IMG/VR virus record: IMGVR_UViG_3300017605_000759
Span: 1-56,101 of that record
DNA from: a virus
Strand: one strand, 5' to 3'
Length of the DNA: 56,101 bases
Part shown: positions 10,703 through 55,177 of the stretch, one piece after another
How the letters are laid out: each line of letters starts with the position of its first letter
Position numbering within the stretch: position 1 is the stretch's first letter
Made by a program: the position numbers and the translations under genes
The notes under the pieces: generated by a model
What the model was told of the DNA's origin: nothing
Database searches by the model: none
What the model saw: only the letters and a program-made list of their open reading frames with translations

Positions 10703-10748
10703 TTCAACAGGACCTTCAAGCGGTGCGTGTCGACTGCATTAAGCTCGA

Positions 10749-17098: not shown

Positions 17099-17153
17099 TA
17101 AATTCACCGCAACCGAAGCAGACCTAGAGATTGTCAAACGTAGGGAGTCGTCG

Positions 17154-17612: not shown

Positions 17613-18207
17613 GCGCCCGTCGCTCGCCGACACGTTCCTAGCGGTCGCGCGCGTGTTTGCCGAGCGGTCTACCTGTCCGGGGGGAGCGAGGCACGGCTGC
17701 GTCATCACGGTCGACGACCGCGTGATCGCGACTGGTTACGGCTCGCCGCCGATCGGCGCGCCGGCCTGCCCGACCTGCTACCTGCGGGACGAGTTCGCTC
17801 GCACCGGCAAGAAGGACTGGTCGGTCTGCCCGTCGATCCACGCCGAGGCGAACGCCGTCGCGTGCGCGGCCAGGAACGGCGTCTCGACCAAAGGTGCGAC
17901 GGCGTGGGTCACGCGTGAGCCGTGCGAGAGGTGCTACGCGCTCCTCCGAGCAGCTGGAATTATCAAAGTTTACTGGTCGCAGGGCGCTAACATGGATGGA
18001 AAGAGAATAGATACCCCTTCCAAAGAATTCCAGGTTCCTGTTAGTGGACCGAGTGGAGTGCCATCGCCAACCCAGGATCTCAGCTTCCACGCCTACACGC
18101 GCGTGCCCGGCCGGCAGTGCGGCCACTGCAGCGGAGACCTCGCGAAGTCGAGGGTTCCCGGCTACTTGTACTGCACACGCTGCGGCGTGGGGAGCATCCC
18201 CGAGTGA
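17587..18207 (+). CDS. dCMP deaminase with C-terminal zinc ribbon
   Basis: Converts dCMP to dUMP, the ThyX substrate. It has 206 residues from ATG 17587 (GGAGG upstream). Catalytic zinc motifs are HAEANAV at about 82-88 and PCERC at about 111-115. CPTCYLRDEF resembles the usual family insert. A C-terminal extension adds CGHCSGDL and YCTRCGVG, a zinc ribbon not present in standard dCMP deaminases. Its stop overlaps the polymerase start. Confidence 0.85.
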   Translation: MSHRTDSSERPSLADTFLAVARVFAERSTCPGGARHGCVITVDDRVIATGYGSPPIGAPACPTCYLRDEFARTGKKDWSVCPSIHAEANAVACAARNGVSTKGATAWVTREPCERCYALLRAAGIIKVYWSQGANMDGKRIDTPSKEFQVPVSGPSGVPSPTQDLSFHAYTRVPGRQCGHCSGDLAKSRVPGYLYCTRCGVGSIPE

Positions 18208-31386: not shown

Positions 31387-33039
31387 CTACTTTCTGTGCC
31401 CGAGGAGGAACCGGGCGCGACGGAAGTTGAAATTGACAATCTGTCCCTTGTTGAAAGAGATCGGCTCGATCTGGAGCGTGCCTGGGTCCATGATCGTGCC
31501 CTCGAACCCATTGATCGCCTCGATGGCGAGTGGACCAGGTGCGTCCTGGTAGACGAAGACGCCGTACTGTCCGTCGGGCCCCTGCTTGTGCTCGCACCGG
31601 TAGTTGCCCGGCTTCGCCGGTGCGCGGAGGATCCGGTCCGGCGAGAACGACTTGTCGTCGCCGCCGTGGAACTCTCGCCATGACTGAATGTCCGGCGGCA
31701 ACAGCGGGATCATCCGCGGTCCGAGAGAGAGCTGCGCGTCATACGCGTCGAACGTCTCGTTGCTCAGATAGACACCGGGACTCGACATGACAACCGGCAT
31801 CTGATGGGTGATGAGCTGCATCAGTGTGATCGCACCCATCACCTCGGGCTCCATCCACTGCGCGTAGTCGTTGACGGCCGAGACCTTTGGTCCACAGCCA
31901 GGTCCCTCGCTGTCGATCGTATAGGGGTGGACTTTACCATCCCAGTAACTGACGGTAAAGGACCGTTCCATAGCATGCCGGAACTCGCCGCGGCTGCCGT
32001 GTTTGTCGGTCACCGTCACTGGCGGACCGATCAGCGTGTTGAGTTCACCCTCGTCCGCTGCCGACGTCATCGACCGGATCGGGCACGGGCACTCTCGCAA
32101 GAATGCATCGAGCATCGCACCCATCAGGTCAGTGTCAGTGCAGCGCGTGAAGTTCCACGCCTCGTTGCCGGCGTCGACGCCGATCACGAGTTGGTCGGTG
32201 CCGCCTTTCGCCTGGAGCCGCTGACCGAGCTGAGCCATGTAGTCGAACAACTGTTGACGCGACCAACTCCGCGCGATCGTGTGGAACCACAGCAAGTCGC
32301 CCTGCGAGACGAGCCAACGGAGTCCGCGAGCGAGGAGCTCGTCGGTGAACCGGTCGATCGTCGGCCAGTGCTCGGGATCGACGGCACTGAACGTGCCTGG
32401 ACGCGGTGCCGTGCCCCACCAGTCTGGCGCCGGCAAATTCGTCCAATCGCGAATGAAGTGAAAGCCGGTCCTGTCGGCGTAGTCGATCGCGGCGAGTGGT
32501 CCGCTCCATCCGATATTCTTTGCTGTCGATAACAAGCTACCAGTGTGGAGACCGATTATCAATCGCTGGCCACTCGCATCTCGGACGCCACCGCGACCGC
32601 CGTCGACGAGTTCGACCTTACCGACGAGACGCGTCGTCGGACGGTCAGGTACCGGCTCCTTGTCGACGTGCTCGTGCACGAACTGGCTTGAGGCCGACGC
32701 CCAGATCGGCGTGCCAGCGAGAGGTCCACGCGGGTCCTCGTAGATGACAAAGTTCCCGTCATCCTGGAGTTGAACCATCGCACCAGGATGCCCGGCCGTC
32801 TTCGAGTGCGCGATGCCGCTGCCGTCCGGAGTCTGGACCACCATGTCACCGTCGGCGCGCATCTTGAGCATGCCGGCAGGTTGGCCGTCGGTATGAGACG
32901 CCCAGATCGGGTTGCCGTCAAGGTAGACGACGAGATTGCCATCACCTTGGTAGTGCAGGTGAGCGTGGTCGCCGACAGACACGAGCGTCTGTTCCGGCAA
33001 CAAACTCTGGCCACTGAAGAGTTTTCCGTCCGTCATCAT
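31387..33039 (-). CDS. Bulb-type lectin + glycoside-hydrolase-like protein
   Basis: A 550-residue protein from ATG 33039 (ATGA with the endolysin). The N-terminal 110 residues form a B-lectin (GNA-type mannose lectin) prism: QGDGNLVVY and QDDGNFVIY match QxDxNxVxY, and the third repeat RADGDMVVQ is degenerate. After a linker comes a putative TIM-barrel hydrolase (LIIGLHTGS, HFIRDWTNL, LLWFHTIARSW, IGVDAGNEAWNF with NE as a possible acid/base, IDSEGPGCG). A C-terminal beta domain ends the protein. It could degrade a capsule or glycan. The hydrolase family is not recognised. Confidence 0.65.
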   Translation of the reverse strand: MMTDGKLFSGQSLLPEQTLVSVGDHAHLHYQGDGNLVVYLDGNPIWASHTDGQPAGMLKMRADGDMVVQTPDGSGIAHSKTAGHPGAMVQLQDDGNFVIYEDPRGPLAGTPIWASASSQFVHEHVDKEPVPDRPTTRLVGKVELVDGGRGGVRDASGQRLIIGLHTGSLLSTAKNIGWSGPLAAIDYADRTGFHFIRDWTNLPAPDWWGTAPRPGTFSAVDPEHWPTIDRFTDELLARGLRWLVSQGDLLWFHTIARSWSRQQLFDYMAQLGQRLQAKGGTDQLVIGVDAGNEAWNFTRCTDTDLMGAMLDAFLRECPCPIRSMTSAADEGELNTLIGPPVTVTDKHGSRGEFRHAMERSFTVSYWDGKVHPYTIDSEGPGCGPKVSAVNDYAQWMEPEVMGAITLMQLITHQMPVVMSSPGVYLSNETFDAYDAQLSLGPRMIPLLPPDIQSWREFHGGDDKSFSPDRILRAPAKPGNYRCEHKQGPDGQYGVFVYQDAPGPLAIEAINGFEGTIMDPGTLQIEPISFNKGQIVNFNFRRARFLLGHRK

Positions 33040-33614
33040 GCCTCCGCGATCTTTCGCTGTAACTTGGTTGTCCGCTTCCACCATCCGAGCATGAAGCGGC
33101 GCTGAGTCAGGTCGCGCTCCATGATAATCTGCATGAACTCCTGGCGCTGCGTCAAGATGCTGTTCGCCAGAAGCACGTCACCGAGCGGCTTGCCGATGAT
33201 CTCGAGGTACTCACGCGTCCTTTTGCCGATGACGCCATCTGGTTCGAGGACGTTTCGGCGAAGTACCTCGTTGATCCCGACTTGAAGAGCCTTCGTAGCC
33301 CGTGGTTGGCCGCTGTGGAACCCGTAGTCAAACACGACGAGCAAGGTCCTAGGATACGGCTCGAGGACATCGTATCCCGGCTCTTTCATAAATACTATGA
33401 CCGCGACAGTCACCGCTTCGTCGAGCGTCAAGTTCTCAACGTATTGCTTGGTCGTCTCACCTTTCGGTGCGCCGAGATATTTCTCCCGGTAATAGGCGAG
33501 GGTGCGGAGCGTGATACCGAACTTCGTGGCTCCACCCTTGTCCACCGGATCGTCGGTGTACTTGAACCCTTCGAAATGCTCGATCGACCAACGGGCAGTC
33601 TCGGCAGCGGTCAT
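33036..33614 (-). CDS. Endolysin, GH108-type N-acetylmuramidase
   Basis: A 192-residue enzyme from ATG 33614 (AGGGAG upstream). EGFKYTDDPVDKGGATKFGI carries the family's EGG-like catalytic motif, with Glu15 as the catalytic residue and DxGG-T-GIT. The C-terminus (GVIGKRTREYLEIIGKPL...) is the PG_binding_3-like part. It cleaves peptidoglycan for lysis. There is no signal peptide, so it is holin-dependent. Confidence 0.85.
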   Translation of the reverse strand: MTAAETARWSIEHFEGFKYTDDPVDKGGATKFGITLRTLAYYREKYLGAPKGETTKQYVENLTLDEAVTVAVIVFMKEPGYDVLEPYPRTLLVVFDYGFHSGQPRATKALQVGINEVLRRNVLEPDGVIGKRTREYLEIIGKPLGDVLLANSILTQRQEFMQIIMERDLTQRRFMLGWWKRTTKLQRKIAEA

Positions 33615-36033: not shown

Positions 36034-39000
36034 TTAGAATCCGTATACTGTGTTGATGCCCCACTCGGAAGCACCAACGATGCCCCAGAGCCACACGTTC
36101 TGCGCGCTTGCCGGCTCGAGTCCCCACGTGCAATACAAGATCTTGTCCGAGTTGTAGTCCAACCGGACACTGTTGATAGAGAACGGCGAGTTGATGCCGA
36201 GCATATTCACGTTCACCGTCACCCGGTCGCCGACTTCGCGCTCGATCGCAGCTCGAATCAAGCGATACGAGATATTGGCCATAAACTTGATCGAGCGGAT
36301 GTGTGCGAGAGGTGATGAAAAAATACTCGCGAAATATGTCGCTGCGTCGGTACCGACATTGATCGAGTTCTGGTACGGCATCACGATTGGGAGCGTGCGG
36401 TCGCCATAGGCGTTCGGCACCGCCGCCTCGATAATGGCCTGATAGCGGCGAATCGCCTTGCCGATCGCTCGCAGGCGGATGACGTATCCGGGCAAGGCCC
36501 CGTTGTTCGTGATCGTCCAACGCACGCCAAGACCGGTGAACGATGGAGTCACGGTGAAGTTCGCCGTGACGTCTGTGCCGCTCCCGTCCTGGGCGGTGTT
36601 CATGATGTACGTCGTGCCGGAGATCGGTGCCTGGAGCGCAGTGCCACCGATGTTATCATTGCTGACCGGATCGCGATACGGTCCGAACAGCCGGTCGTTC
36701 GTCTCACCGGCTGAGATCAGCGTCGTGGTGGTCTGCAAATCGTACAGGATCGTCGTCGGCGTGGCGTCGACGCCAGTCGGCTTCACGAAGACCTGGATCA
36801 AGCTCACGATGTCGTCGATCGAGCCTGGTACAACGAGCATGCCTTCTTGGATGTCGGCGTCCGTGATGTCGAGGAGAGAGACCGGGTTCGATCCGCGGTT
36901 GTGGCGGTTCTCGTAGACAAACGTACCGCCCTGCGTCGAGTCGCCCTTAACGTACGAGTAGTCGAGGCCGCTCATGACAATCTGGTTGATGCCCTCTCGG
37001 ACCTTCGGGTTCTGACCAGTGACGGCGCCGTCCATCGAAATCGAGTAGGTCTCGAGTCCGACGCCCATCGAGGCAGTGATCGGCCGCTCCTTCATCGGCA
37101 GACCATCGAGAACCAACTCGATGAGTTCGTCACCACGTTTATCAGTCTGAGCATCGATACTCGGCAATGGATTCCGCGCGGCCTTGTCCATCCAGTCTCT
37201 CGACTGGCAACGCGTAACCTGCGCACCATGCGGGTCAGTCGTCGGCACGATGCCAGACAAAGATCCACGGTGCTTGTACGACATCACCGATCCAGAGTAC
37301 AGTTTCAACCGGATCCCGATGTTGAAGTCGAACGACGGCTTCTTCGACGCGTGCAGCGGCGAATAGTACGATCTCGTCGCCACGGAGTTCCGCTCGCTAT
37401 TGTCGAGTCCCCATTGAAGCGTGCCAGTGTTCGCGATGCGGTCGTTCGGCGTGTCGCCGGTGATGCCGTAGCTGCAAGAAATCGTCTCAGCGCTTCGGAC
37501 GTCTGGCAGCAAACTCCGCCAACCTGTGGCTAGGCGAAGCGCGTACAGTTCGGCGACCTCAGCCGCGGTCAGCCATTCAGTCTCAAATGAAAAATCCGAC
37601 AGGAAGCCGAGCCACGGCATCGGGGTCGAGAGGTCGTTCCCGATCTGTAGTCGGTTGTTACTCGAGCCGTACCGGATGTTACCGCTCGTCGTGTCCGTAC
37701 CGACGAGCACGCCGTCCAGGTACAGTTCCATCAAACCACCGCTGCCGTTGTTCCTGAACTGAGCGACGAACATGTGGGGCGTGTCGTTGGTAATCGCTGC
37801 GGAGCTTATCAGTCCGCCATCGCCGCTGCCATCGAAGTTGTTGACGAAGAAGTTCAACGCCCGCCCAGTGAAGCCGCCACCAGTGGTGGTCTTGATGAGC
37901 ACACCGAAGCCGTCGCTCCAGGCCGAGGTGTTCGACCGCAGGATCGCGACCTCCCAGCCAGTCGACGCGCCGATGCCGGTTCGATACAGCATTCCTGTAA
38001 TGGAAAACGTCGTCGGACTCTGCCACGACGCGTAGTTTCCGGCGTGAAAGCCTTTGGTCGTAGCGAACTCAGTCACGCTCTTCGCGTTGTCCTCGGAGAT
38101 GAGACCGAGTTGCTGGAATGATAGTCCGCTACTCGCGGTCAGAGTGTGACTCGCGCCACTCGAGTCGGCGGCGGTTGCCGAACCACTCGCGTCGTTCAGC
38201 CGCCAGTAGCCGAGAAGGTTGCCTCTGAAACGCTCCTTGATCCACTCGTACACCGACCGATCTAGGCCGTCTTCCTTGTTCTCCAGATCGATCCGCGGTT
38301 GCGGCGGGATACTCTCGCAGACAGGATGGTCCGCACTGTAGCTCGAGCTGATCGCGGTCAGACTGTACTGGAGCGGATACGGCCCGATACGGTCGTGCTC
38401 GTACGCGTCGTCCAGGTAGTTGAATGGAAAATACGAGACGAGCGCGTCTCGCGCGGGAACTGAGCCCGCGTTCCATGCGGTTGCCTCTGCGTCAGTCAGT
38501 GGCCTGTTCCACACGGCCAACTCAGCCATATAGCCATCGTAGTCACCTGCGACTTGGTAGCGAGTCATCGGCTTCGTGAACGCGCCGACGTTCGTAGTGT
38601 TGGTCGCCTTCACGCCGTCGAGGAATACGGCGCGCGACGCCGGTCCAGCAAAGACCGCCACAGCAGTGTGCCACGCGCCTGTTGAAAAAGTGTTCGAGGA
38701 CTGGGCGTTGGCGCTGGTCGTCGCTCCAGCGGCGACGGCTTGGACCTTGTTCGCCGTCGCGTTGATCTGCGCGTACTGCGTGCCATCGGTCGAGGTGATG
38801 GCGAACAGTAGACCCGCCGCTGTGGACGGTTTGAACCGGCACGCGAGCGTGAACTGCTCGTTAGTCTGGAAGGCCGCTTGATAATGCGCAGCGATCTCTG
38901 TCGCGGTCATCGCCCGGTTGTAGATGGCCGCCTCATCGAGTGAGCCGTTCAACGAGTTGACCGATGTATTGATGTACGCGCCGAGTCGCCAGGTGAACGC

Positions 39001-40284
39001 GGTCACGTTCGCTGACGCCCAGGTCGAGTCGCTCTTAATCTGGACGCCATTCTTGTAAATGCGGACAGTCGTGCCATCGTGAGTGAACACCAAGTGCGTA
39101 TACACACCGACTGTCATGCCAACGCCAGACGTGACGGCTCGGAGCGTGCCGCCACTGTCCGTGAACTGTAGGCGAATGTCCGTCGTATCGGCGTACAACG
39201 TGACCAGTGGTGTCGTCTCTCGAGCCGCGTAGACGTGCACGCCAGACGTCGACGGCTTCACCCACGCCTCAACCGACCACGCCGTCCCGAGGTCAGGGAC
39301 AGAGACCTGCGCGTAGATATTGTTCGTGACAGCCGGATTGAGCGCGTCTGTTCCAGTCGGACTGTCCGCAAGCGCACCAGTCACGCCAAGGATCATGCCG
39401 TTGAGATATTTTCCGTGATTCTGGTTACCAGCGCTGTCCTCGAGGATCGCGTTAGTCGTGGCGTCAACGTACGTCCTCGCTGCGTAAAGAGCCGTGACCT
39501 CGGACTGAGCGACCGCGCGGCCCGAGACGACGGTGATGCGCGACAACCGTCCTGCGAAATAACCGGTCGACCCGGACGCACTACGCCCAATGGTAAAAGC
39601 GTTCGCGTTCGCTGTGATCGACCCGGTGTCCGCAGTCGTCTGCTGCAAGGTACCATTGAGATACAGGCGGATGTTCGAACCATCATACGTGGCGACGATG
39701 TGGTTCCACTGACTGAGCGGAAGCGCCGCTGACGTCGTCGCGCCCTTGACGACTCCGCCGACCTGGCGCCGAATCTGAAGCTTGCCTGCCGCGCCGTCTG
39801 ATAGCGGGAAGATGGTAAAGAGCCAGCAGTCACTCGCTCCGGCATCCTTCGAGATCGGCTGGGCGTACGTCGTCGCCTGGACCGCGCTCTGCCAGATCCA
39901 GAACGAGATCGAGAACGACGCCGTCCCGGAGAACATGTAGTTGTTGCCGAACGTAAAGTAGTCGGCGGTCCCGTCGAATGAGATCGCTGTGCCGCCGTCG
40001 CTGATCGGTCCCGCGAGACCATACGTCGGCGCGCCGTTCTTGACGCCGCCGAGACCGCCAGGGCCAGAGTCCACCAAATTGCCGCTCGCCTCGCCGAACA
40101 GCCAGTGACTATTCGGCGTGAGCGCCATCGCTTGGCGGTTATAGCCGGTCTCGTTGAACCGCCAGTAGCCGATCAAGCCGCGAGTCGCGCGGACAGCGGC
40201 CTCGTAGGCGCTGAGCGGAATAGCGGTGCCACGATTGCCGTGGAGATAGATGTTCGTGCCGGTGTCGACGAAGAAACGACTCAT
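36034..40284 (-). CDS. Tail hub/tip protein with four LamG-like lectin domains
   Basis: A 1416-residue protein directly after the tape measure (ATGA). The N-terminal two-thirds contain four concanavalin A/LamG-type jelly-roll domains, roughly residues 40-270, 310-470, 475-640 and 690-910. Each has typical strands such as SISFWIW, WNHIVATYDGSNIRLYLNG, HLVFTHDGTTVRIYKNG and MELYLDGVL. Three end in an ExxALY-like helix. The last 500 residues are hub-like (GIRLKLYSGSVMSYKHRG; RVTVNVNMLG; CTWGLEP). It combines tail-tip structure with multiple carbohydrate-binding modules. Confidence 0.75.
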   Translation of the reverse strand: MSRFFVDTGTNIYLHGNRGTAIPLSAYEAAVRATRGLIGYWRFNETGYNRQAMALTPNSHWLFGEASGNLVDSGPGGLGGVKNGAPTYGLAGPISDGGTAISFDGTADYFTFGNNYMFSGTASFSISFWIWQSAVQATTYAQPISKDAGASDCWLFTIFPLSDGAAGKLQIRRQVGGVVKGATTSAALPLSQWNHIVATYDGSNIRLYLNGTLQQTTADTGSITANANAFTIGRSASGSTGYFAGRLSRITVVSGRAVAQSEVTALYAARTYVDATTNAILEDSAGNQNHGKYLNGMILGVTGALADSPTGTDALNPAVTNNIYAQVSVPDLGTAWSVEAWVKPSTSGVHVYAARETTPLVTLYADTTDIRLQFTDSGGTLRAVTSGVGMTVGVYTHLVFTHDGTTVRIYKNGVQIKSDSTWASANVTAFTWRLGAYINTSVNSLNGSLDEAAIYNRAMTATEIAAHYQAAFQTNEQFTLACRFKPSTAAGLLFAITSTDGTQYAQINATANKVQAVAAGATTSANAQSSNTFSTGAWHTAVAVFAGPASRAVFLDGVKATNTTNVGAFTKPMTRYQVAGDYDGYMAELAVWNRPLTDAEATAWNAGSVPARDALVSYFPFNYLDDAYEHDRIGPYPLQYSLTAISSSYSADHPVCESIPPQPRIDLENKEDGLDRSVYEWIKERFRGNLLGYWRLNDASGSATAADSSGASHTLTASSGLSFQQLGLISEDNAKSVTEFATTKGFHAGNYASWQSPTTFSITGMLYRTGIGASTGWEVAILRSNTSAWSDGFGVLIKTTTGGGFTGRALNFFVNNFDGSGDGGLISSAAITNDTPHMFVAQFRNNGSGGLMELYLDGVLVGTDTTSGNIRYGSSNNRLQIGNDLSTPMPWLGFLSDFSFETEWLTAAEVAELYALRLATGWRSLLPDVRSAETISCSYGITGDTPNDRIANTGTLQWGLDNSERNSVATRSYYSPLHASKKPSFDFNIGIRLKLYSGSVMSYKHRGSLSGIVPTTDPHGAQVTRCQSRDWMDKAARNPLPSIDAQTDKRGDELIELVLDGLPMKERPITASMGVGLETYSISMDGAVTGQNPKVREGINQIVMSGLDYSYVKGDSTQGGTFVYENRHNRGSNPVSLLDITDADIQEGMLVVPGSIDDIVSLIQVFVKPTGVDATPTTILYDLQTTTTLISAGETNDRLFGPYRDPVSNDNIGGTALQAPISGTTYIMNTAQDGSGTDVTANFTVTPSFTGLGVRWTITNNGALPGYVIRLRAIGKAIRRYQAIIEAAVPNAYGDRTLPIVMPYQNSINVGTDAATYFASIFSSPLAHIRSIKFMANISYRLIRAAIEREVGDRVTVNVNMLGINSPFSINSVRLDYNSDKILYCTWGLEPASAQNVWLWGIVGASEWGINTVYGF

Positions 40285-45694: not shown

Positions 45695-46117
45695 TTAAGA
45701 GGGTTGCTTCATCGCGTCGATGTTAAAGACAACCACGACGCGTCCTGCTTCGTCAATTCCGAGGTCAGTAGGTTCCTGCCTCGCAGTGATCTGTTGATAA
45801 AACACTCCACTGAGAGTCTTGTTCCACGTGCCATCGAGCGCTAAGAAGATGGCCTTCGCACGCGCACGAGCCGCCGCGTACGTGGCCGCACGGGTCAAGA
45901 TCTGCGCACCAGGCTTCTGCACGTGGACGCCGGTATCGTTCTGAATGCGACCGCCGCCGCCGCGAAAGCCGCCGACTGCTGCGCCGCCAGTCTCGGTCAA
46001 CGTGGTATACGGTCCCGGCCCAGACGGGATCTTCGCCGCGCTTGACAAGAACAAGTCCCCGTTGAGCACGAGTCCCAGGTCAGTCACGAGTTTTGCTGCG
46101 ATCTCATCGAGAAACAT
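45695..46117 (-). CDS. Tail terminator-like protein
   Basis: A 140-residue protein (LDEIAAKLVTDLGLVLNGDL..., VHVQKPGAQILTRAATYAAA, GVFYQQITARQEPTDLGIDE) resembling phage minor capsid/tail terminator proteins. TGATG-coupled to the upstream tail-completion gene. Confidence 0.7.
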   Translation of the reverse strand: MFLDEIAAKLVTDLGLVLNGDLFLSSAAKIPSGPGPYTTLTETGGAAVGGFRGGGGRIQNDTGVHVQKPGAQILTRAATYAAARARAKAIFLALDGTWNKTLSGVFYQQITARQEPTDLGIDEAGRVVVVFNIDAMKQPS

Positions 46118-46518
46118 CAGAGTTTCAACCTCGCTGCTAGTCGCTCTGCCATGTACGGCTGAGACTCGTTCAGTACGCTCTCAGCAAACTTCGCCTGACC
46201 GACCGGATGGAAATTGTCAATGATCTCATGCACCCAGACAGCGTAGTCCTGCGCCGCGCCGCCAAACGACAAGATCACGAAGTACTTGTTGCCTTCTCGT
46301 TGCGGCTGATGAACTGTACCACTTGCCCGGAGTTGACCTGGATGCGGAGGTATTCGTCCACCAGCATAGTTCACATCAACTGGCGTCCGCTTTTTCATCT
46401 CTGTCATCTCAATATTTCCCTCGATGAACAGAGCTCGCACGATCTTGGTCGGCGCCTCATCTGCGACGCCCTTGACCTTTACGCGCATCGGCTTGACGCC
46501 CTTCCACGTGAAGGCCAT
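46117..46518 (-). CDS. HK97 gp10-like tail completion protein
   Basis: A 133-residue protein with KKRTPVDVNYAGGRIPPHPG, GTLR-type ASGTVHQPQR and AVWVHEIIDNFHPVGQAKFA, characteristic of HK97 gp10-like head-tail proteins. Its ATG (46518) overlaps the stop of the glycosyltransferase gene, so its translation is coupled to the glycan cassette. Confidence 0.8.
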   Translation of the reverse strand: MAFTWKGVKPMRVKVKGVADEAPTKIVRALFIEGNIEMTEMKKRTPVDVNYAGGRIPPHPGQLRASGTVHQPQREGNKYFVILSFGGAAQDYAVWVHEIIDNFHPVGQAKFAESVLNESQPYMAERLAARLKL

Positions 46519-47753
46519 CAGACTCTCACGAAACTCGCAGGTTTCGCTAACTGGTCAATCTGGCCCTTATCCTGGTCCAGACTGTCCAATACGGTTAGGT
46601 AAGCGGCGCCAATGTTCTCCCACCGGTACCTCGGGTCAGACGCGCACTTCAAAGCCAAATCCGCAAATCCGGCGCGAAACTGAGGGTCACGGTACATCAA
46701 GTTGAGGTTTCGGACGAACGACTCCTCGTCAGGCACGCCGCCGATGACGTTTACATATGGAGGTCCGACGTGCGTCGCCGTGCAGGGGATAACGCACGAG
46801 TGGTCTCCAGCCCAATCACCAAGCGCAGACCAACCAGGTAATTGTTGCGGCACGCCGCACGCCATTGACTCGAGGGTGGTCAGACCGAACCCCTCGCCGG
46901 CTGTAGTGCTGACGGCGACGTCGAAGCAGTTATACGTCTGCGCCATGACCTCTTCAGACACGCCGTAGAAGACCTCAGGTGTTACTACCGCCAGCCGGTC
47001 GACCACTCCGTAGTACCTGGCAAGTGAGACTGCGTCGATCCCCTTGTCACCAGTCGGTGCGGTGTGGAGGAAGAGGTATGCGTCACGCACACCTTCCTCA
47101 TTGATCCACTTGGCGAAATATTTGATGAGCAAGTCCCAGCGCTTTCGCGGTTGATTCCGGTTCACACTGCCGACGATGAACATGTCGCGAATTTCTTTCG
47201 GCAAACGCTTTCTAGCCTCTTCTCGCGGCATCGGATAGAAAACTTTTTCATCTACACCGAGAGGAATGACAGACGCTGGTCCTTTGTAGCCACCAGCCCG
47301 CGCCTCATCAAGTGCGAACTGCGTCCAGAAGATCGCATGCTGCACGCCATCCAACCACCGGCCATCAAAGTTTTTTCCATCGACAGCTACGATCGTCACG
47401 ATCGGAACCTGTGCATGTTCGGGGAACGCGTATTCGCCGTTCGCCTTCTTCATGCGAAGCTGTTGGACGTAGTACGGGATATTCCACCCGTCATTCTGGA
47501 TGACAATCACATCGAGACCGCCAAGCTTGTCCTTGACGTAATCGCACATCCAGATCAATCTGCCGATACCGAAGCCGTCACCACCTGCACCGGCCGAAAA
47601 GATCTCGTACGGATACGGATGAGGGTCGCCGCGATAGTTCAAGCCGAGTACCGTCACGTAGTAGTACTGCCGCAACGTCTCGAGGATGTTGTGTGTCGCT
47701 TTCGCGAAGCCTGAGGGACACGCCGCGTCTCCGATCCAGAGCATGCTCTTCAT
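46518..47753 (-). CDS. GT-B (GT4-like) glycosyltransferase
   Basis: A 411-residue enzyme. The N-terminal Rossmann domain includes IGDAACPSGFAKATHNIL. The C-terminal domain carries VGSVNRNQPRKRWDLLIKYF and the EX7E motif in GEGFGLTTLESMACGVP near residue 290. Soluble retaining glycosyltransferase; donor unknown. Last gene of the cassette; TGATG couplings at both ends. Confidence 0.82.
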   Translation of the reverse strand: MKSMLWIGDAACPSGFAKATHNILETLRQYYYVTVLGLNYRGDPHPYPYEIFSAGAGGDGFGIGRLIWMCDYVKDKLGGLDVIVIQNDGWNIPYYVQQLRMKKANGEYAFPEHAQVPIVTIVAVDGKNFDGRWLDGVQHAIFWTQFALDEARAGGYKGPASVIPLGVDEKVFYPMPREEARKRLPKEIRDMFIVGSVNRNQPRKRWDLLIKYFAKWINEEGVRDAYLFLHTAPTGDKGIDAVSLARYYGVVDRLAVVTPEVFYGVSEEVMAQTYNCFDVAVSTTAGEGFGLTTLESMACGVPQQLPGWSALGDWAGDHSCVIPCTATHVGPPYVNVIGGVPDEESFVRNLNLMYRDPQFRAGFADLALKCASDPRYRWENIGAAYLTVLDSLDQDKGQIDQLAKPASFVRV

Positions 47754-48301
47754 CAGTTATGCCCCAGAAGCGCGATGACCTCCGGCCTCCACACGTAGTC
47801 TTCTGTCAGCGACCACTTCGATGTCTCGAGGAAGTGGCAATCTCCCCCCACGAACGAGCCCCACGAGCCGAGCTTTGTCGGCTGGTTAGGAATCAAGAAC
47901 ATCGGCGTGCCTACGTTGCCGCAGCGCACGACCTCCTCACTCCACAACGTGATTCCGTTTGGATACCGCATGCGAAATAGGATCGGCTTACCCGGCGTCT
48001 TCGTGATCGCGTCCTGCATTAGGGCTCGAGTGCTTGGCGCATAAATGTCGTCGTCGTCGATGTGTGCGATGTACTTGCATCGCGCGACAGGTGTCGCAAA
48101 GTTCCGCTCTTTGTGACCCCAGTCGCCGCCGGGCTCACAGTCCAGCAGCTTGATCTCCGGTCGGGTCTTCACTAAAGAGCTGAGGTTGAGCGAGACGTGC
48201 TTGCCGACGACGAGGATCTCGTCACCAGGCAGGGTTTCGATAGACCGCAACGTCGCGTACAGTGACGGGCGGCCGACAGTTGGAACGATGAAGGAGATCA
48301 T
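47753..48301 (-). CDS. GT-A (GT2-like) glycosyltransferase
   Basis: A 182-residue protein from ATG 48301 (ATGA). FIVPTVGRPSLYATLRSIE opens a GT2 fold, and AHIDDDDIYAPST near residue 90 is the DxD-type metal/donor site. The C-terminus is short, WRPEVIALLG. Minimal compared with bacterial GT2, but the core is complete. Confidence 0.75.
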   Translation of the reverse strand: MISFIVPTVGRPSLYATLRSIETLPGDEILVVGKHVSLNLSSLVKTRPEIKLLDCEPGGDWGHKERNFATPVARCKYIAHIDDDDIYAPSTRALMQDAITKTPGKPILFRMRYPNGITLWSEEVVRCGNVGTPMFLIPNQPTKLGSWGSFVGGDCHFLETSKWSLTEDYVWRPEVIALLGHN

Positions 48302-48933
48302 TTGAAAGTCTCCTGCAGGTTCCACTTGTTGATGTAATTCGTCTGCGCGATCTTGAACAGCCGGTGGTGTTCGGCTAGTTCTTCGTGCGTCGCAGCCTTG
48401 AGTGTAGCGGAGTGAAAATGTTCGACTCCGCAGTCAACCTCTTCTGCCGTCGCGTTGCGTGGCTTCGTGCCGCGGCCATCCAGCCGTTGGAGGTAGTCGT
48501 CGTCTTCGTAGTAGCCGTAGCCTGGCGAAATCTCCTCGTCAAACAGGCCGAGCTTGTCGACGCACGCATCGCGGATGACGAAGCACGCGAAGCCGAACCC
48601 TTTGGCCCAGACGAGGTCGCACTCAGAGGCGACCAACCGTTCGATCGAGTCCGGTGCGAACTTGATGTCATCGTTCACGATGATGCGGTCGTCCTCAGTG
48701 GCATTGATAAAGCGATTCCAGGACGCCGCGACACCGATGTTCTTGCCCGGCTCGTCGATGTAGACCGGGACCGTCGCCACGGCCACGGCTTCGCGGAGCT
48801 TCTGCGGGTTCGCGCCGTTGTCGATGACGTAGACGCCGGCCGGCGTGACGGTGCTATCGCGGAGGGACAGCAAGAGCTCGACCAATTTGTCGTAGCGCCT
48901 GAGGACTGGGACGCAGATGGAGACGGGCTTCAT
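48298..48933 (-). CDS. GT-A (GT2-like) glycosyltransferase
   Basis: A 211-residue protein from ATG 48933 (ATGA). VSICVPVLRRYDKLVELLLS starts the fold. RIIVNDDIKFAPDSIERLVA contains the NDD site. GLFDEEISPGYGYYEDDDYL is typical of the acceptor region, with E-DD as the catalytic acid block. Probably adds a sugar to a growing glycan. Confidence 0.8.
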   Translation of the reverse strand: MKPVSICVPVLRRYDKLVELLLSLRDSTVTPAGVYVIDNGANPQKLREAVAVATVPVYIDEPGKNIGVAASWNRFINATEDDRIIVNDDIKFAPDSIERLVASECDLVWAKGFGFACFVIRDACVDKLGLFDEEISPGYGYYEDDDYLQRLDGRGTKPRNATAEEVDCGVEHFHSATLKAATHEELAEHHRLFKIAQTNYINKWNLQETFK

Positions 48934-49607
48934 CGGTGCATCTCCTTCAGTACCTCGATAGCGCTCGCGACTGCCCTCGGATGAACCTGATCCCAATAGA
49001 ACGGGATGTGCGCCGCAGGATCGCGGTGACTGTCTGTGAAGGTCGCATCCGGCGCGAAGCCGGCCCAATCGTGAGCGATGGACACTTGCGGCACCATCAC
49101 GCAGCGACCGAAGAACGCCATCACGTCTCGCAAGAAGATGTCGACCCAGAAGATCGTCGGGTCCGCGATGAAGCCTAGCTTCTCGACGACTGCCCTCGAC
49201 ACGCACGCGAAGGGGTAGTGGTCCTCGTTGTGCGTCGTGACGCCGAGGTCAAAGATTCCGTCAGGATACCTGTTCGCCACGGCCAGTAACTCGTTCGCCC
49301 AGTTCGGCGACTGGAACACCATGTCGTCGTTGCCGCACATGAACACGTCACCAGTCGCCCAACCCGTGAGTTCATTGAAGAACGTCGGTAGGCTCGCGTA
49401 GCCGCTGTGTCGCGGACCGACAACATGTGAGATCCCTTCAGCCGCCAATAGCTCAAAGGTGGGACGGTCGTCTTCGTCGACGCGGAACACCATCTCCGCG
49501 ACGTCTCCGTCAGCAGTCGCTCTGAACGAGTCGATGAGCGTCCTCAACCTGGGTATCCTTCGCCTCGTCGGTATCAGCACCGACACCTTCTTGAACGTCA
49601 TTGTCAT
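48930..49607 (-). CDS. GT-A (GT2-like) glycosyltransferase
   Basis: A 225-residue protein (219 if it starts at ATG 49601, which has better GGAG spacing). VSVLIPTRRRIPRLRTLIDS, GDVFMCGNDDMVFQSPNW (donor DD site) and WVDIFLRDVMAFFGRCV. Member of the same family as its two neighbours. A hexamer repeat lies just upstream. Confidence 0.78.
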   Translation of the reverse strand: MTMTFKKVSVLIPTRRRIPRLRTLIDSFRATADGDVAEMVFRVDEDDRPTFELLAAEGISHVVGPRHSGYASLPTFFNELTGWATGDVFMCGNDDMVFQSPNWANELLAVANRYPDGIFDLGVTTHNEDHYPFACVSRAVVEKLGFIADPTIFWVDIFLRDVMAFFGRCVMVPQVSIAHDWAGFAPDATFTDSHRDPAAHIPFYWDQVHPRAVASAIEVLKEMHR

Positions 49608-49618
49608 TTCTCCTTGAG

Positions 49619-49658
49619 TTCTGCTTCTGCTTCTGCTTCTGCTTCTGTTTCTGCTTCT
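49619..49658. repeat. Hexanucleotide microsatellite (TTCTGC)n
   Basis: About six near-perfect units, AGAAGC in the direction of transcription, between two cassette genes and overlapping the leader of the glycosyltransferase at 48930. Related short GAAGCAG runs precede the genes at 44943 and 45192 and appear at 28813. Confidence 0.75.
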
Positions 49659-49815
49659 ACCGGTGCTCCATGTGGAGCCTGCGCAAGTACTTCACCGCCG
49701 CCGCTACTTGCTCGTCTGTCAATTGCCCACTGTCGTCGATTAGCAGGGCGACGTTCTCCTCAAACGCCGCCTTGCACTTGGGGCACTGCAACTGCTTTTT
49801 CAACTCTTCAGTCAT
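49657..49815 (-). CDS. Zinc-knuckle mini-protein in the glycan cassette
   Basis: A 52-residue protein from ATG 49815. LQCPKCKAAF (CxxC) is followed by a helix (TDEQVAAAVKYLRRLHMEHR). It may assist the radical SAM enzyme or be a small regulator. Only two cysteines are visible, so zinc would need dimerisation. Confidence 0.55.
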   Translation of the reverse strand: MTEELKKQLQCPKCKAAFEENVALLIDDSGQLTDEQVAAAVKYLRRLHMEHR

Positions 49816-49816
49816 A

Positions 49817-51421
49817 TCAGTGTCCTGCGTAGCTCACCACACTGGCTGCGGTGAGAGTGCCGTTCGCCGCCGCCTCGTCTTGCTGCTGGCGGATGCGCTT
49901 GTCCTCGTCCCACTCCGCTTTCGCCCAACCGTTCGCGACCTGGAAGTCGAACATCTCTTTCTTGACGCGGAACATCTCCTCGACGCTCACGCCGTCCGGC
50001 TGCACGAGGATTTCGTCGCGGGCCGAGAAGCCGACGATCCACTGGTTGTCGTAGTTGTAGTCGTGGATGGTAATCCCGCTCTCACGGGGATGCGTCCACC
50101 AGCGGCTGCCGGGATACGGGATACCGACGGCGAGGTTGCAGCTGTCGAGGTATGGCTTGACCTTGAGCAGCCAGTCTTGCGTCTCCTTCATCGTGTCGAG
50201 CGTCTCGCCCGCCATCCCGATGACGAGAAACGCGATCGTGTAGAAGCCCTGCTCCTTCGCTCGGATGATCGCGTCGGTGTTCTGCTGGACCTTTGTCCCC
50301 TTCTGGTTTGCGTCGAGCACGCGTTGGCTGCCGCTCTCGATGCCGAAGCAGGTCACCTTGCAGGACATGCGGTGCAGACTCTCCGCGACGTGGTCGTCCA
50401 TCGTGTTGACGCGCGTGTGGATGCGGGCCGCGAACGCGTTGCGGCCGAATGCGCTGTCGATGCTGTCGGCCAACTCGCGGAGCTTCGTGCGGTGCAGCGT
50501 GTAGGTATCGTCCTGGAACTTGAACATCCGGACGCCCTTGTCCATCACCTGCGACATCTCGGCGATGATGTTGTGCGGCGAGCGGTAGCGCGGCTTCTGC
50601 CCGATCCACGGCGTCGAGCAGTAGGTGCACTTGTAAGGACAGCCACGTGTCCCGATGATCGACATCACCGCGCCACTGGCGTCGGGATGAAAATCATTCG
50701 GGAAGTACTTCTTCTTCATGACCGCGACGCCGTCGTTGTAAATGTGGTCCTCGGGCAACAGGTCCCACGCCGGGAACGGGATCGCATCCAGGTCCATCGC
50801 GTCGGCCTTGTCACCGTAGTAGTACGGCTGGAGCTTGCCGGCGTCCCAGTCAGTGAGCAACTGGAGGACGGCGACCTCGCCCTCCATCACCACCACGGTG
50901 TCGAACAGCCGGCGACCGTCAGCTGCTCGGTAGTCTCGGCGCTGCGCCAAGCGGCCCTTGTAGTGATAATGCTCCTGACGACCGGCTTCGTACGTCTCCT
51001 TCGGCTCGTACGAGGGGTGTGGTCCGCCTGCAACCAGCAGTGCGTCGGGGTTGCGGTCCTTGATGTAGGCCGCGAGCTCGAGCGCCTCGCCGAACTGCGG
51101 GGTGCAGAAGCCAAACATGTGGACGTCGGCCTTCATCGCCTCGTCAGGCAGGTGGATGTTGCCCTCGTACCGCTTGTCGAGCATCGAGGTCACCATGACG
51201 TCGTGACCGTGCTGCCGCAAGAGTCCGGCGATGTATAGCACGCCGAGCGGGACGTTGGTCTTGCTGTCCGCCAGCCACGGCGACGACGGCAGGATGCAGT
51301 TGATCTTCTTGCGTGGGATGGGGCGGATCGGCAAGCCGCTCGTTGTCACCGACGCGCAGCTCCCTTCTCCGCTCATCTGATACGCGCTGTTCAGCGAGTT
51401 CAGCGGGATTACCTTGCTCAT
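49817..51421 (-). CDS. B12-binding radical SAM enzyme
   Basis: A 534-residue protein. The N-terminal cobalamin-binding-like Rossmann domain (NVPLGVLYIAGLLRQHGHDV, VHMFGFCTPQFGEALELAAY, LLVAGGPHPSY) is followed by a radical SAM barrel. There GTRGCPYKCTYCST provides the CX3CX2C cluster motif near residues 259-266, with FKFQDDTYTLHRTKLRELAD and CFGIESGSQRVLDANQKGT. A C-terminal domain is present. This is the class B (methyltransferase/rearrangement) architecture. Substrate is unknown; with glycosyltransferases around it, sugar C-methylation or remodelling is likely (inference). Confidence 0.85.
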   Translation of the reverse strand: MSKVIPLNSLNSAYQMSGEGSCASVTTSGLPIRPIPRKKINCILPSSPWLADSKTNVPLGVLYIAGLLRQHGHDVMVTSMLDKRYEGNIHLPDEAMKADVHMFGFCTPQFGEALELAAYIKDRNPDALLVAGGPHPSYEPKETYEAGRQEHYHYKGRLAQRRDYRAADGRRLFDTVVVMEGEVAVLQLLTDWDAGKLQPYYYGDKADAMDLDAIPFPAWDLLPEDHIYNDGVAVMKKKYFPNDFHPDASGAVMSIIGTRGCPYKCTYCSTPWIGQKPRYRSPHNIIAEMSQVMDKGVRMFKFQDDTYTLHRTKLRELADSIDSAFGRNAFAARIHTRVNTMDDHVAESLHRMSCKVTCFGIESGSQRVLDANQKGTKVQQNTDAIIRAKEQGFYTIAFLVIGMAGETLDTMKETQDWLLKVKPYLDSCNLAVGIPYPGSRWWTHPRESGITIHDYNYDNQWIVGFSARDEILVQPDGVSVEEMFRVKKEMFDFQVANGWAKAEWDEDKRIRQQQDEAAANGTLTAASVVSYAGH

Positions 51422-52182
51422 CTTTGTGCCTTTCCGTTGTCACCGGCTTTTGCCGGAGTGGATGCCGCACGTTTACGCATGCAGAGATTCACGAACGAGT
51501 AGTTGTGTACGAAGTCGCCCTTGTATTCGAAATCCGTTCCATCGACGAATTCCAAGCCGAACCGTTCCGGCAGAGTGGCGACATACTCCGGCCGGTACGG
51601 GGTGACCTGCAAATGCTTCGAGACGCTCTGGTCGTAGTGCGCGAGGTCCCTGAAGTAATCGCTGGTTATCATTACGAGACCGCCAGGCTTCGTGATTCTG
51701 ACCATCTCACGAAACGCCGCGTCATGATTTTCGACGTGCTCGATTGATGAGATACAGAGCGTGACGTCGAACTTGTCAGTCGCTCCGCCCCATCCACGAG
51801 TCCTGCCCTCGGACATATCCATGATGTCCAGGTTCCAGCAAGGCAATGAGACGCTGTAAGCGGCGCGCTGAGCCGCTACCATCCACTCAATGTCTCCGTA
51901 CTGCATATTGTCCGTGCAGCAGAGCAATGGAAACATCGTCGCGAGGAGTGGATCGAAGAAACTCGCGCCACTCCCGAGGTCGATCATCTCGGCATCCTTC
52001 GGTACTCCGAGCATCTCGAGCTGCTGCAGGATGCTCGCGTACTCCCAGAACCGATGCGGGTGCCACTCGCGATGCGGGACTCGTCGCGCCACCATGTCGT
52101 CGAGGTGTCGATGCAGCAGCGCGTTCTCTTTCTGCAAGAAGTCATAGTCGTCCGAGTGGAGCGAGCGGTTGAACGGTCGCAT
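51418..52182 (-). CDS. SAM-dependent methyltransferase
   Basis: A 254-residue class I methyltransferase from ATG 52182 (TGATG). Motif I EMIDLGSGASFFDPLLA is near residue 65; CTDNMQYGDIEWM binds SAM ribose. DVTLCISSIEHVENHDAAF and ITKPGGLVMITSDYF are motif IV-VI. It probably methylates a sugar or nucleotide-sugar in the cassette pathway. Confidence 0.82.
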   Translation of the reverse strand: MRPFNRSLHSDDYDFLQKENALLHRHLDDMVARRVPHREWHPHRFWEYASILQQLEMLGVPKDAEMIDLGSGASFFDPLLATMFPLLCCTDNMQYGDIEWMVAAQRAAYSVSLPCWNLDIMDMSEGRTRGWGGATDKFDVTLCISSIEHVENHDAAFREMVRITKPGGLVMITSDYFRDLAHYDQSVSKHLQVTPYRPEYVATLPERFGLEFVDGTDFEYKGDFVHNYSFVNLCMRKRAASTPAKAGDNGKAQR

Positions 52183-52940
52183 CAGTACACCCTCGCTCCC
52201 TCGTGGCGAGCCCACATCTCTCTCAAATCTGCCCCCTTCGCCGCCAACTGCTGGTGCGCCAGGTCTAAGTCTCGATGACCGGCGTGCAGCGGATGATAAA
52301 ATAACGTGTCGTCGATTCGCACGAACTCGACGCCTGACTTGTGCATCCGATACTGGAAGTCAGTCTGCGCATGACCCCATGCGGTGAGCGCCTCGTCCAA
52401 GCCGCCGACTCGGTCGAACGCGTCCTTGCGCGCGAGCCACACGCCAGAGTCGACGATCGTGTAGTCGATCTCGAAGCCGCTGAACCTTGGGCCTAGCTGG
52501 CGCCACGCGGTCTTCTCGCACTCACCAATGTCCATCGACAAGTGGCAGCCCTTTGAGACAACGAAGCCGTTCCAGCCATTCGGCTTCGCCCCAGCAACTG
52601 CGATGTGCTTCTCGAGTGCGCTGAACGCCAGCAAATAATCTGCACGGGTGAAGAAGATCCAAGGCGTCGCCACGTTCCGTACCGCAGTGTTCGTCGACCA
52701 GGAGTGCGTCTTATTCGCATCACCATGTTTGAATGAGAATAACTGCACCGGTACCGTAAACGGCACCTCGTCGATGACCTGGCTGATGTCCGCCTCTGAG
52801 TCAGACGTGTCGTTGTCGACGATCACGATCGAATCGACGAGCGACATATCTTGACGCTGCAACGAGTGGAGCGCCGCCGACAAGTTGGCGAGCGCCAAAC
52901 TCTTGAAATACGTGAAGCAGACCGTCACCGGTGCGCTCAT
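52182..52940 (-). CDS. GT-A glycosyltransferase (GT2/galactosyltransferase-like)
   Basis: A 252-residue protein. VTVCFTYFKSLALANLSAAL opens the fold; PWIFFTRADYLLAFSALEK holds the metal site region (RAD replacing DxD). RVGGLDEALTAWGHAQTDFQ resembles the acceptor-binding C-terminal domain with GWGxxD. The ATG overlaps the head-closure stop (ATGA), so it is translated together with head genes. Confidence 0.78.
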   Translation of the reverse strand: MSAPVTVCFTYFKSLALANLSAALHSLQRQDMSLVDSIVIVDNDTSDSEADISQVIDEVPFTVPVQLFSFKHGDANKTHSWSTNTAVRNVATPWIFFTRADYLLAFSALEKHIAVAGAKPNGWNGFVVSKGCHLSMDIGECEKTAWRQLGPRFSGFEIDYTIVDSGVWLARKDAFDRVGGLDEALTAWGHAQTDFQYRMHKSGVEFVRIDDTLFYHPLHAGHRDLDLAHQQLAAKGADLREMWARHEGARVY

Positions 52941-53320
52941 CCGATCACCACTTCAGTCGCGATGGGGTGACCAGTCCCTGCGTCGATGAACCCTCGGATA
53001 TCGAGGATCGGTCCCGTGTCGCCGTCCGGCAGCACGAACTTGTCGTTGTTGTCGACGCCGGCACCGCCGGTCGCCGTCACGACGGCGTTGATGTCGAGGA
53101 GAGTGATAATCGCCCTCGAGACGGTGAGGATCCCCTCCTGCGTCCTGACCTGCGTGCTCTTGTAGTCGACGATCGCCTTCAACGACACGGCAGGCGCGTA
53201 CGTCGGGGCGCCGTAACCGTCGGTGCCGATGAGTCGGCTGTACAGCACCGTCGCCTGGAGCGGCTTCGTCACTTCGTCTGCGATCTTGACTGCCGAGCGG
53301 AGCGTGTCCAGCAGACTCAT
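52937..53320 (-). CDS. Head closure / connector protein
   Basis: A 127-residue beta-rich protein (LQATVLYSRLIGTDGYGAP, AIVDYKSTQVRTQEGILTVS, VLPDGDTGPILDIRGFIDAG) of the SPP1 gp16/head closure type, seen in order after the connector protein. Overlaps the first glycosyltransferase gene. Confidence 0.7.
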   Translation of the reverse strand: MSLLDTLRSAVKIADEVTKPLQATVLYSRLIGTDGYGAPTYAPAVSLKAIVDYKSTQVRTQEGILTVSRAIITLLDINAVVTATGGAGVDNNDKFVLPDGDTGPILDIRGFIDAGTGHPIATEVVIG

Positions 53321-53895
53321 GAGATCACATCGAAGAGCGCGGGTGAAGCCGGCTCAAACAGTTCGTCAGTAAACCACGACGCAGGCATGAGGTTCATCAC
53401 CGCGTCCGGGAGCACATGCGCCTCGATGTCGTCCTTGAACGTCACTGACACACTGCCAGCGCTCACTGACTTGATGCCCTGGGCGACGGCAGAATTGTCC
53501 AGGGTCGTGTCCGACATCTTCAACTGTCCAGCGAGCTCGGACTCGGCGTCCTTCAGGGCCTGCGGGATCACGTTCTCGGGGATAGGGTTTCCATTCGCGT
53601 CGAACATGCCGACGCGCGGCCAAGCGAGGCGCTGCGTCGCTGACGCCGGAGACCCGGTCCACGTCTTGCTGGTGTAGTAGCCCTTGCAGTCACCGCACTT
53701 GCGGAGAGTCTTCTTGGGCTGCGCCATCGAGTTCAACACGCGCGTCGCCATAATCAGCGCGCGTATCGCTTCGTCGCCACTGGCGACCCATGGCGTCGGG
53801 AGCGGCAGTCGCTCGTCGAAGTACGTGTTGGCTTCGGCGAGCGTCTCGTAAGAGTTGCTCGACGCGCCACCGATGGTGGCGTCTATTGTCGGCAT
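53317..53895 (-). CDS. Head-tail connector protein (DnaT-like / gp6-like)
   Basis: A 192-residue protein from ATG 53895 (GTG 53898 possible). ANTYFDERLPLPTPWVASGD and ALIMATRVLNSMAQPKKTLR are typical of DnaT-like single-strand-binding-annotated phage connector proteins. CGDCKGYYTSKTW adds a Cys pair. Its position right after the major capsid supports the adaptor role. Confidence 0.75.
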   Translation of the reverse strand: MPTIDATIGGASSNSYETLAEANTYFDERLPLPTPWVASGDEAIRALIMATRVLNSMAQPKKTLRKCGDCKGYYTSKTWTGSPASATQRLAWPRVGMFDANGNPIPENVIPQALKDAESELAGQLKMSDTTLDNSAVAQGIKSVSAGSVSVTFKDDIEAHVLPDAVMNLMPASWFTDELFEPASPALFDVIS

Positions 53896-54109: not shown

Positions 54110-55177
54110 TTAGGTCAGCGTTCCGATGCAGATGCCGCTCTTCAGGTTGTAGTCCCACTTGACGCGCGGAACCATGATGCCCATGATGAGGTTGTGGAAC
54201 GTCATGCCCGAGAGCGACGTCCACGGAATCACCGTCGGCTTCTGACCGACGACGACGTCGAGCACGTCCGAGGTCATCTGGACGAGCACGACCTTGGTCG
54301 CTGGCATGAGGTCCGCCGTGCGGATGGCCTCGATGCCCTCGAGCTTGAGCAGACGCTCGCGGATCGTGTTCTGCGGCGCCGCGGTCACGTAGTCGTTGTC
54401 GAAGTACGCGCCGACGTCGGTGTTGACGTACAAGCGATACGGGCCAAACTTCTTGTTCGCCCGCAGCTTGGACATCATTGTCATCACTTCCGAGACGATC
54501 GTCGCCGGAACCGGCGTCGAGTCCCACGCGGAAGCGGTGAGCACCTGGGTGGCCGCGTTCGGCGCGTTCACGATGCCGGGCGCCTTGTAGCCGGCGACCT
54601 GGAGGTCCTGGCCGTCGAGCGTCGTGGCGCCGTTGATGAACGCGTCCTCGAACGCCTCGTTGACCGCGCGCACGCCGGACTTGACGTTCGCGGTGTCGAG
54701 GGGCATGCCGAGGCGACGGGACATCTTGAGCGTGCGGATGTCCAGCTCGAAGCCTGCCGTGGTGAGGTAGATCGGCAGGCGGTTCGCCAGCAAGTCGGGC
54801 AGGAAGTTTTCCTGCCGCGTCTCGGGCGTCATGGTGCGCTGAGCGGTGGCGACCTTGTTCGAGGACAGCCACTCGATCTGCGTGATGCTCAGCGGATCGG
54901 TGAGGTTGAACGTCAATCCTGCGGCCATGACGTCGGCCATCAGGGTCAGGCGGTCCATGCCGACCTCGACGATCGAGTCGTCGATGATCCGCTGCGCGTT
55001 GTCCGGCAACGGGGCGAGCGTTCGAAAGCCGTCGTCAGCGAGGTGCTGCTCGAGGGCCCGGAAGCCGGGTGAGCGGAGGTTCTCGATCGTCAGACCACCG
55101 GGCATGCTCAGCGCGCGCTCGATCGCGCCGCTGAGATCGGTGCATCCGGCGCCCGTGAATCTCATTTCCTGTTTCAT
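54110..55177 (-). CDS. Major capsid protein (HK97 fold, encapsulin-like)
   Basis: A 355-residue protein. The E-loop/helix region FELDIRTLKMSRRLGMPLDT, then RAVNEAFEDAFINGATTLDG and RLLKLEGIEAIRTADLMPA are typical of HK97-fold capsids of the encapsulin/Linocin-like branch. It is followed by connector genes and preceded by decoration and scaffold-like genes. A GTG/ATG-independent strong leader (GGAGACTGAACACATG) supports ATG 55177. Confidence 0.9.
   Translation of the reverse strand: MKQEMRFTGAGCTDLSGAIERALSMPGGLTIENLRSPGFRALEQHLADDGFRTLAPLPDNAQRIIDDSIVEVGMDRLTLMADVMAAGLTFNLTDPLSITQIEWLSSNKVATAQRTMTPETRQENFLPDLLANRLPIYLTTAGFELDIRTLKMSRRLGMPLDTANVKSGVRAVNEAFEDAFINGATTLDGQDLQVAGYKAPGIVNAPNAATQVLTASAWDSTPVPATIVSEVMTMMSKLRANKKFGPYRLYVNTDVGAYFDNDYVTAAPQNTIRERLLKLEGIEAIRTADLMPATKVVLVQMTSDVLDVVVGQKPTVIPWTSLSGMTFHNLIMGIMVPRVKWDYNLKSGICIGTLT

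Follow-up and report, generated by a model that had tools for sequence, protein, structure and literature searches.

The window analysed here, an entire virus record of 56,101 bases from IMG/VR (IMGVR_UViG_3300017605_000759) in whose numbering the coordinates of its genes are given, carries a glycan-building gene cassette at positions 46518-52940 among the genes for the head-tail connection. A preliminary description drawn from the letters alone had listed four glycosyltransferases (GTs) of the GT-A fold and one of the GT-B fold, an S-adenosylmethionine (SAM) methyltransferase, a B12-type radical SAM enzyme (hereafter rSAM) and a Cys mini-protein on one strand; open reading frames, found at the positions first reported for all cassette genes, and domain searches bear this inventory out. 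Its placement of the cassette within the head-tail block also held, as the neighbours match adaptor, head-tail connector, major tail and tape-measure families of PHROG. In 5' to 3' order on the minus strand, the genes run head closure, GT1, methyltransferase, rSAM, mini-protein, GT2, GT3, GT4, GT-B and tail completion, and they are given below with the two virion genes that precede them.

54110..55177, minus strand: major capsid protein, matching phrog_771 and phrog_264
53317..53895, minus strand: head-tail adaptor Ad1 (phrog_477, E = 3.3e-27)
52937..53320, minus strand: head closure/connector protein, the left border of the slot that holds the cassette (phrog_3881 connector, E = 4.9e-05; ATGA junction with GT1)
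52182..52940, minus strand: GT1, a GT-A enzyme of Glyco_transf_7C/GT2 type (PF02709, 30.8 bits, and PF00535, 29.1 bits, both above cut-off)
51418..52182, minus strand: class I SAM methyltransferase (PF08241, 33.9 bits; passes Methyltransf_11 and Methyltransf_23)
49817..51421, minus strand: rSAM, a radical SAM enzyme with a B12-binding domain (PF04055, 68.5 bits; PF02310, 44.3 bits against a cut-off of 32.1)
49657..49815, minus strand: mini-protein of 52 amino acids with a CxxC...HxxH motif, found with the same spacing in relatives
48930..49607, minus strand: GT2, a GT-A enzyme with an invariant G-N-D-D (phrog_14945 glycosyltransferase, E = 8.9e-14; motif kept in 31 sequences)
48298..48933, minus strand: GT3, a GT-A enzyme with an N-D-D motif (phrog_29879 galactosyl transferase, E = 6.2e-17; invariant residues in the alignment)
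47753..48301, minus strand: GT4, a short GT-A enzyme with an invariant D-D-D-D (alignment of 16 homologues; PF00535, E = 0.0018, below cut-off)
46518..47753, minus strand: GT-B, of the GT4 family (phrog_2170, E = 1.8e-33; Pfam Glyco_trans_1_4, 34.2 bits against a cut-off of 27)
46117..46518, minus strand: tail completion protein, HK97 gp10-like by position, the right border of the slot (synteny with relatives)

The tail completion protein gave no family match in Pfam or PHROG searches and is assigned by position and synteny alone. The chain of ATGA and TGATG junctions described earlier was found at most gene borders, including those with head closure and tail completion (ATGA at head closure/GT1, methyltransferase/rSAM, GT2/GT3 and GT3/GT4; TGATG at GT1/methyltransferase, GT4/GT-B and GT-B/tail completion), but it is broken at two places, rSAM and the mini-protein lying 1 nucleotide apart and the mini-protein and GT2 49 nucleotides apart. 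GT3 starts at 48933 and GT4 at 48301, neither of which is the longest start of its open reading frame. The overlaps are seen again in relatives and suggest that translation of the cassette is coupled; the block would then be translated alongside the connector proteins and made late, with the particle. Only one gap of any size interrupts the cassette; it separates the mini-protein from GT2 (49608-49656, minus strand) and contains a hexanucleotide repeat, (GAAGCA)n, which would give an acidic (EA)n tail if read in another frame.

A search of IMG/VR with rSAM returned 29 loci, and a search with the rSAM alignment 31 viral contigs. GT2 and GT4 were present at all 30 of the rSAM loci that were tabulated, and GT1 was found among head-tail genes in every case where the contig was long enough (26 of 26). 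Five of these loci had no recognisable methyltransferase, with GT1 immediately preceding rSAM, and the order of GT3 and GT4 was reversed in several relatives while the gene set remained together. The cassettes fall into two lineages of virion genes. In the first, to which the window belongs, the major capsid protein matches phrog_771 and the adaptor phrog_477, and the block is flanked by head closure and tail completion; in the second, with a phrog_617 major capsid protein, a phrog_2271 portal and a phrog_442 adaptor, it lies between portal and adaptor and additionally includes one sialyltransferase-like, one CgeB-like and one further GT2-type gene. Recurrence of this gene set, in a shared order, across many divergent phages shows that the cassette is no chance cluster but a conserved unit linked to virion genes. 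In the relatives, which the preliminary description had proposed to compare, scattered subsets lacking a link to structural genes were not seen, with the exception of L039.

Two alternative explanations concerning rSAM were considered and set aside. Search bias as the source of its high identity among relatives was one; searches based on GT4, GT-B and the capsid protein gave no rSAM outside the rSAM-based set, nor any additional, more diverged rSAM genes. The other was a cellular origin; a scan of 84,980 genomes, which detects close relatives only, returned a single further rSAM, located on a phage-like contig of a Sulfuricaulis bin.

The position of rSAM is occupied in some relatives by a different enzyme. 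In L042, L043, L050, L075 and L153, and in the partial loci L041 and L044, a protein unrelated to rSAM lies between the methyltransferase and GT2. This protein matches D-mycarose 3-C-methyltransferase (PDB 4rv9, E = 6e-40) and TcaB9 (E = 1e-30), exceeds the cut-off for PF08484 (Methyltransf_14, 98.8 bits) and falls just under that for the zinc domain PF08421 (Methyltransf_13, 30.4 against 31.3). The sugar 3-C-methyltransferases TylC3 and TcaB9 thus have a clear homologue at the rSAM position in six relatives, whereas none is found in the window, and their fold and chemistry are unrelated to those of rSAM. The two enzymes never occur in the same locus. On a tree of GT2 and GT4 from 34 cassettes, of which six, on two branches, have the C-methyltransferase, the swap required at least two changes even when only well-supported branches were considered, and a single origin was mildly rejected (approximately unbiased test, p-AU = 0.025). 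Repeated replacement at the same place by an unrelated enzyme appears best explained by an equivalent product. Since this exclusive swap is with a sugar C-methyltransferase, rSAM itself is most likely a cobalamin-dependent sugar C-methyltransferase, which would methylate a carbon of the sugar by way of methylcobalamin. The methylated or rearranged sugar chain first proposed for this cassette hence gains independent support in its methylated part.

Cobalamin-dependent radical SAM C-methylation of sugars is known from GenK and GenD1 of gentamicin biosynthesis (PMC4340712). Like these enzymes, rSAM combines B12-binding and radical SAM domains, although it has no sequence match to them and its C-methylation is proposed. 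Its cluster motif, CxxxCxxC (C261/C265/C268), is invariant in 16 relatives, and its N-terminal part is Rossmann-like in the predicted model. The closest solved structure is that of AprD4 (PDB 6fd2; profile E = 2e-18, Foldseek E = 4e-18), with the profile similarity limited to the radical SAM core. No characterised NCBIfam family was matched above its cut-off, the best being PhpK (109.6 bits against 600), with HpnJ among the top weak matches. Both observations count against C-methylation, AprD4 being a radical SAM 1,2-diol dehydratase of paromamine and not a methylase, and because of them another radical reaction on the sugar is possible. The cassette would in that case still serve a virion glycan, with rSAM catalysing a dehydration or deoxygenation, an epimerisation or a ring contraction. 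We consider this unlikely. AprD4 also has a sugar substrate, but rSAM scores far below the cut-off of the AprD4 family (NF033070, 72.4 bits against 500) and keeps unlike gene company, a true sugar C-methyltransferase fills its position in relatives, and its B12-binding domain, above the Pfam cut-off, fits methyl transfer.

Relatives were also sampled independently of the cassette, by a search with the major capsid protein, which gave 54 distinct groups, 25 of them spanning the region from capsid to tail completion. GT-B lies between the capsid and tail-completion genes in 22 of these 25 groups and is a near-core gene of the phage group. The slot upstream of it varies from empty (L121, L136) to more than eight genes, and in L037, the nearest relative of the window by capsid (80%), it holds a single small methyltransferase. 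Elsewhere its contents are typical deoxysugar and glycan genes, with DegT/DnrJ/EryC1/StrS sugar aminotransferases in L111, L126 and L162, an NTP-transferase-domain protein in L125, and other glycosyltransferases and methyltransferases in further slots. This plan resembles that of a bacterial O-antigen locus, and swapping of the slot among phages would give related phages differing glycans in the same manner. In L224 (12472-13946), head closure is immediately followed by a second sugar C-methyltransferase, only distantly related (28%), and then by a DegT aminotransferase, a pair that could form an amino-C-methyl sugar route. The neck region accepts other cargo too: in L028 (15619-19532), an insertion of some 4 kb, made up of tail-fibre-like genes and unknown ones, separates tail completion from tail terminator.

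Sequence divergence among relatives sets rSAM apart from its neighbours. Its median pairwise amino-acid identity is 81%, compared with 50-61% for the other cassette genes and 41-56% for the virion genes, and its proportion of nonsynonymous differences (pN) is 0.14, compared with 0.27-0.36 and 0.32-0.42, respectively. The corresponding synonymous value (pS) is 0.67 for rSAM and 0.69-0.75 for the other cassette genes, within an overall range of 0.56-0.78 for the genes compared. rSAM is thus under purifying selection, and, as pN is low while synonymous sites are about equally diverged, these values indicate that the constraint is unusually strong and that the gene has not spread recently. Recent horizontal transfer was generally rejected as the source of its high identity, since its pS is as high as that of its neighbours; the pairs of the window with L008 and with L010, both at a pS of 0.46, may include a younger exchange. 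The same data bear on the idea that the cassette consists of passenger genes drifting between phages and gathered at a permissive site among the connector genes. The strong variation in slot contents would fit such drift, but pN is far under pS for every gene, most strongly for rSAM, catalytic motifs of the transferases are intact throughout the relatives, GT-B is widely kept, and the swaps are functionally matched, so that we regard this explanation as very improbable.

Among the transferases, GT1 has an invariant R99-A-D-Y102 at the position of the metal motif (26 homologues). The Glycos_transf_2 matches of GT2, GT3 and GT4 are just under the Pfam cut-off, that of GT3 exceeding it in a further search, and GT4 is identified solely by its sub-threshold Pfam match and the invariant DDDD motif in 16 homologues. 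All four PF00535 matches of the window fall in the cassette. The class I methyltransferase gave an AlphaFold2 model with a predicted TM-score (pTM) of 0.87, and its Foldseek matches were numerous small-molecule methyltransferases, RebM and AtmM among them; it is probably a small-molecule or sugar O-methyltransferase. An assignment to a sub-type by fold was rejected, as many small-molecule methyltransferases score equally. The mini-protein, whose motif suggests that it may be a small zinc protein or zinc finger, lies directly downstream of rSAM in about one-third of relatives; a CxxC...HxxH protein of similar length is found directly 3' of rSAM in L008, L009, L013, L015, L016, L021, L022, L031 and L038, whereas in four further loci (L018-L020 and L035) the protein at this position is longer and has two CxxC pairs. 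Because it is often absent from relatives, the mini-protein is probably accessory.

The acceptor of the glycan was considered next to the content of the cassette proteins and of the contigs. No segment resembling a membrane span was found in any cassette protein (highest 19-residue mean hydrophobicity, 1.4), and none of these proteins showed the signature of Gtr-type serotype conversion, namely a membrane flippase and a membrane-bound bactoprenol transferase. With positive controls, neither a ThyA-type gene nor a nucleoside diphosphate (NDP)-sugar dehydratase was detected in 16 contigs including the window. Together, the lack of membrane spans, of a ThyA-type gene and of an NDP-sugar dehydratase favour a cytosolic acceptor produced concurrently, namely a virion protein, which would be glycosylated with host nucleotide sugars. 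Remodelling of host surface glycans, late in infection for superinfection exclusion or receptor release, or in a lysogen, had been offered as the alternative and is weakened by the missing membrane segments. Serotype conversion provides known examples of phage glycosyltransferases that act in this way, and in pelagimyophages radical SAM cassettes with glycosyltransferases in a hypervariable tail-fibre region are usually read as host lipopolysaccharide genes (PMC7029224). Against this stand the absence of any Gtr-kind flippase or polyprenol-phosphate transferase and the embedding of all the genes in connector genes across two capsid lineages, and we judge a host-surface role distinctly improbable.

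Phage glycosyltransferases often target DNA, and the window carries genes for ThyX, a dCMP deaminase and DNA metabolism; the cassette might thus be thought to glycosylate the DNA of the phage, by analogy with hypermodified T-even-like or TET-type phages. This seems to us very doubtful, given that ThyA is absent from the 16 contigs and that the cassette is located with virion genes and not with DNA genes; TET/JBP was likewise not detected in the 16 contigs, in a search whose control was silent. The nucleotide module itself (15436-18207, plus strand) comprises a kinase-like open reading frame, ThyX (PF02511, 122.6 bits), which replaces ThyA, and a dCMP-deaminase family protein.

We therefore favour, as a reasonably probable account of the whole, a cassette that builds a glycan with branched, C-methylated sugars for the virion. 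Within the cytosol of the infected cell, GT-B would initiate the glycan of an abundant virion protein or play a central part in it, the four GT-A enzymes would lengthen the chain from nucleotide sugars supplied by the host, and the class I methyltransferase and rSAM would tailor one sugar of that chain. Several findings pull the other way. GT-B is not essential to the particle, since it is missing from 3 of the 25 relatives (L229, L230 and L231), where head closure is followed directly by tail completion and which offer a natural comparison for phages that have the glycan locus. The swap is seen in six cassettes only. The capsid, decoration and tail tube proteins showed no Ser/Thr-rich tail that might serve as a glycan attachment region. 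The substrates of TylC3-type enzymes are nucleotide-linked 4-keto sugars, which the host would have to make because no sugar dehydratase was detected in the 16 contigs. Finally, in L039, a contig of 116 kb, an rSAM homologue (73% identity) lies outside the head-tail genes (6160-11620), with only distant relatives of the methyltransferase (36%) and GT1 (34%) about 2-3 kb upstream and a mini-protein-like open reading frame downstream.

Placement among connector genes, part of what the preliminary description had thought unusual, proved to have precedents. The mycobacteriophage Corndog carries an O-methyltransferase (gp35) and glycosyltransferases (gp36-gp38) between portal and protease (PMC4351075), and two papers, both citing Freeman 2023, report that glycosylation genes of this type modify capsid and tail tube (PMC11600133, PMC12363180). 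As in Corndog, Che8 and Myrna, a methyltransferase and several glycosyltransferases lie among the head genes of the window. In contrast to the Corndog type, the window has a B12-type radical SAM enzyme, uses another slot (between head closure and tail completion), has relatives with exchangeable deoxysugar-type genes and has a probable proteobacterial, rather than mycobacterial, host. GT-B homologues of 30-34% identity also adjoin capsid or connector genes in phiPsal1 (Pontimonas), Mae-JY09 (Microcystis) and S-CBS4 (Synechococcus), accompanied in phiPsal1 and S-CBS4 by a GT-A enzyme and a methyltransferase, but these phages have few sugar genes and no radical SAM enzyme. Among named phages, nothing matched GT1 of the window. 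Glycan genes that lie within head genes and are linked to the virion are thus already known; the radical SAM member, the exclusive swap and the combination of a conserved GT-B with an exchangeable slot are new as far as the literature was searched, and this search found no paper describing a radical SAM enzyme as part of a phage glycan cassette.

More tentatively, we propose that a large, mostly uncultured group of tailed phages keeps an O-antigen-like locus, GT-B plus an exchangeable block, through which each phage acquires a virion glycan of its own, and that the most conserved gene of this block encodes a cobalamin radical SAM sugar C-methyltransferase of a new family confined to phages. 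If so, glycan coating of the particle would be no peculiarity of certain actinophages but a standing, diversifying trait across a widespread phage group, and would have its own exchangeable locus. It would also rely on radical chemistry that has not been reported for virion modification in the literature searched, carried out by enzymes of a highly conserved, phage-specific family, for which a natural enzyme swap indicates the probable reaction. The cost of C-branched sugars could then be explained by protection against glycosidases or protists, by altered adsorption, or by avoidance of host or animal recognition.

Two further proteins of the window resemble lectins. Residues 21-117 of a 565-residue protein (31387-33084, minus strand) match the lectin-like bacteriocin family of putidacin L1 (NCBIfam NF033557, E = 4e-19, below cut-off), and the protein has two sites like the B-lectin motif QxDxNxVxY. 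A tail-region protein of 1416 amino acids (36034-40284, minus strand) contains four concanavalin-A-like (Laminin_G_3) lectin stretches (E = 6e-60).

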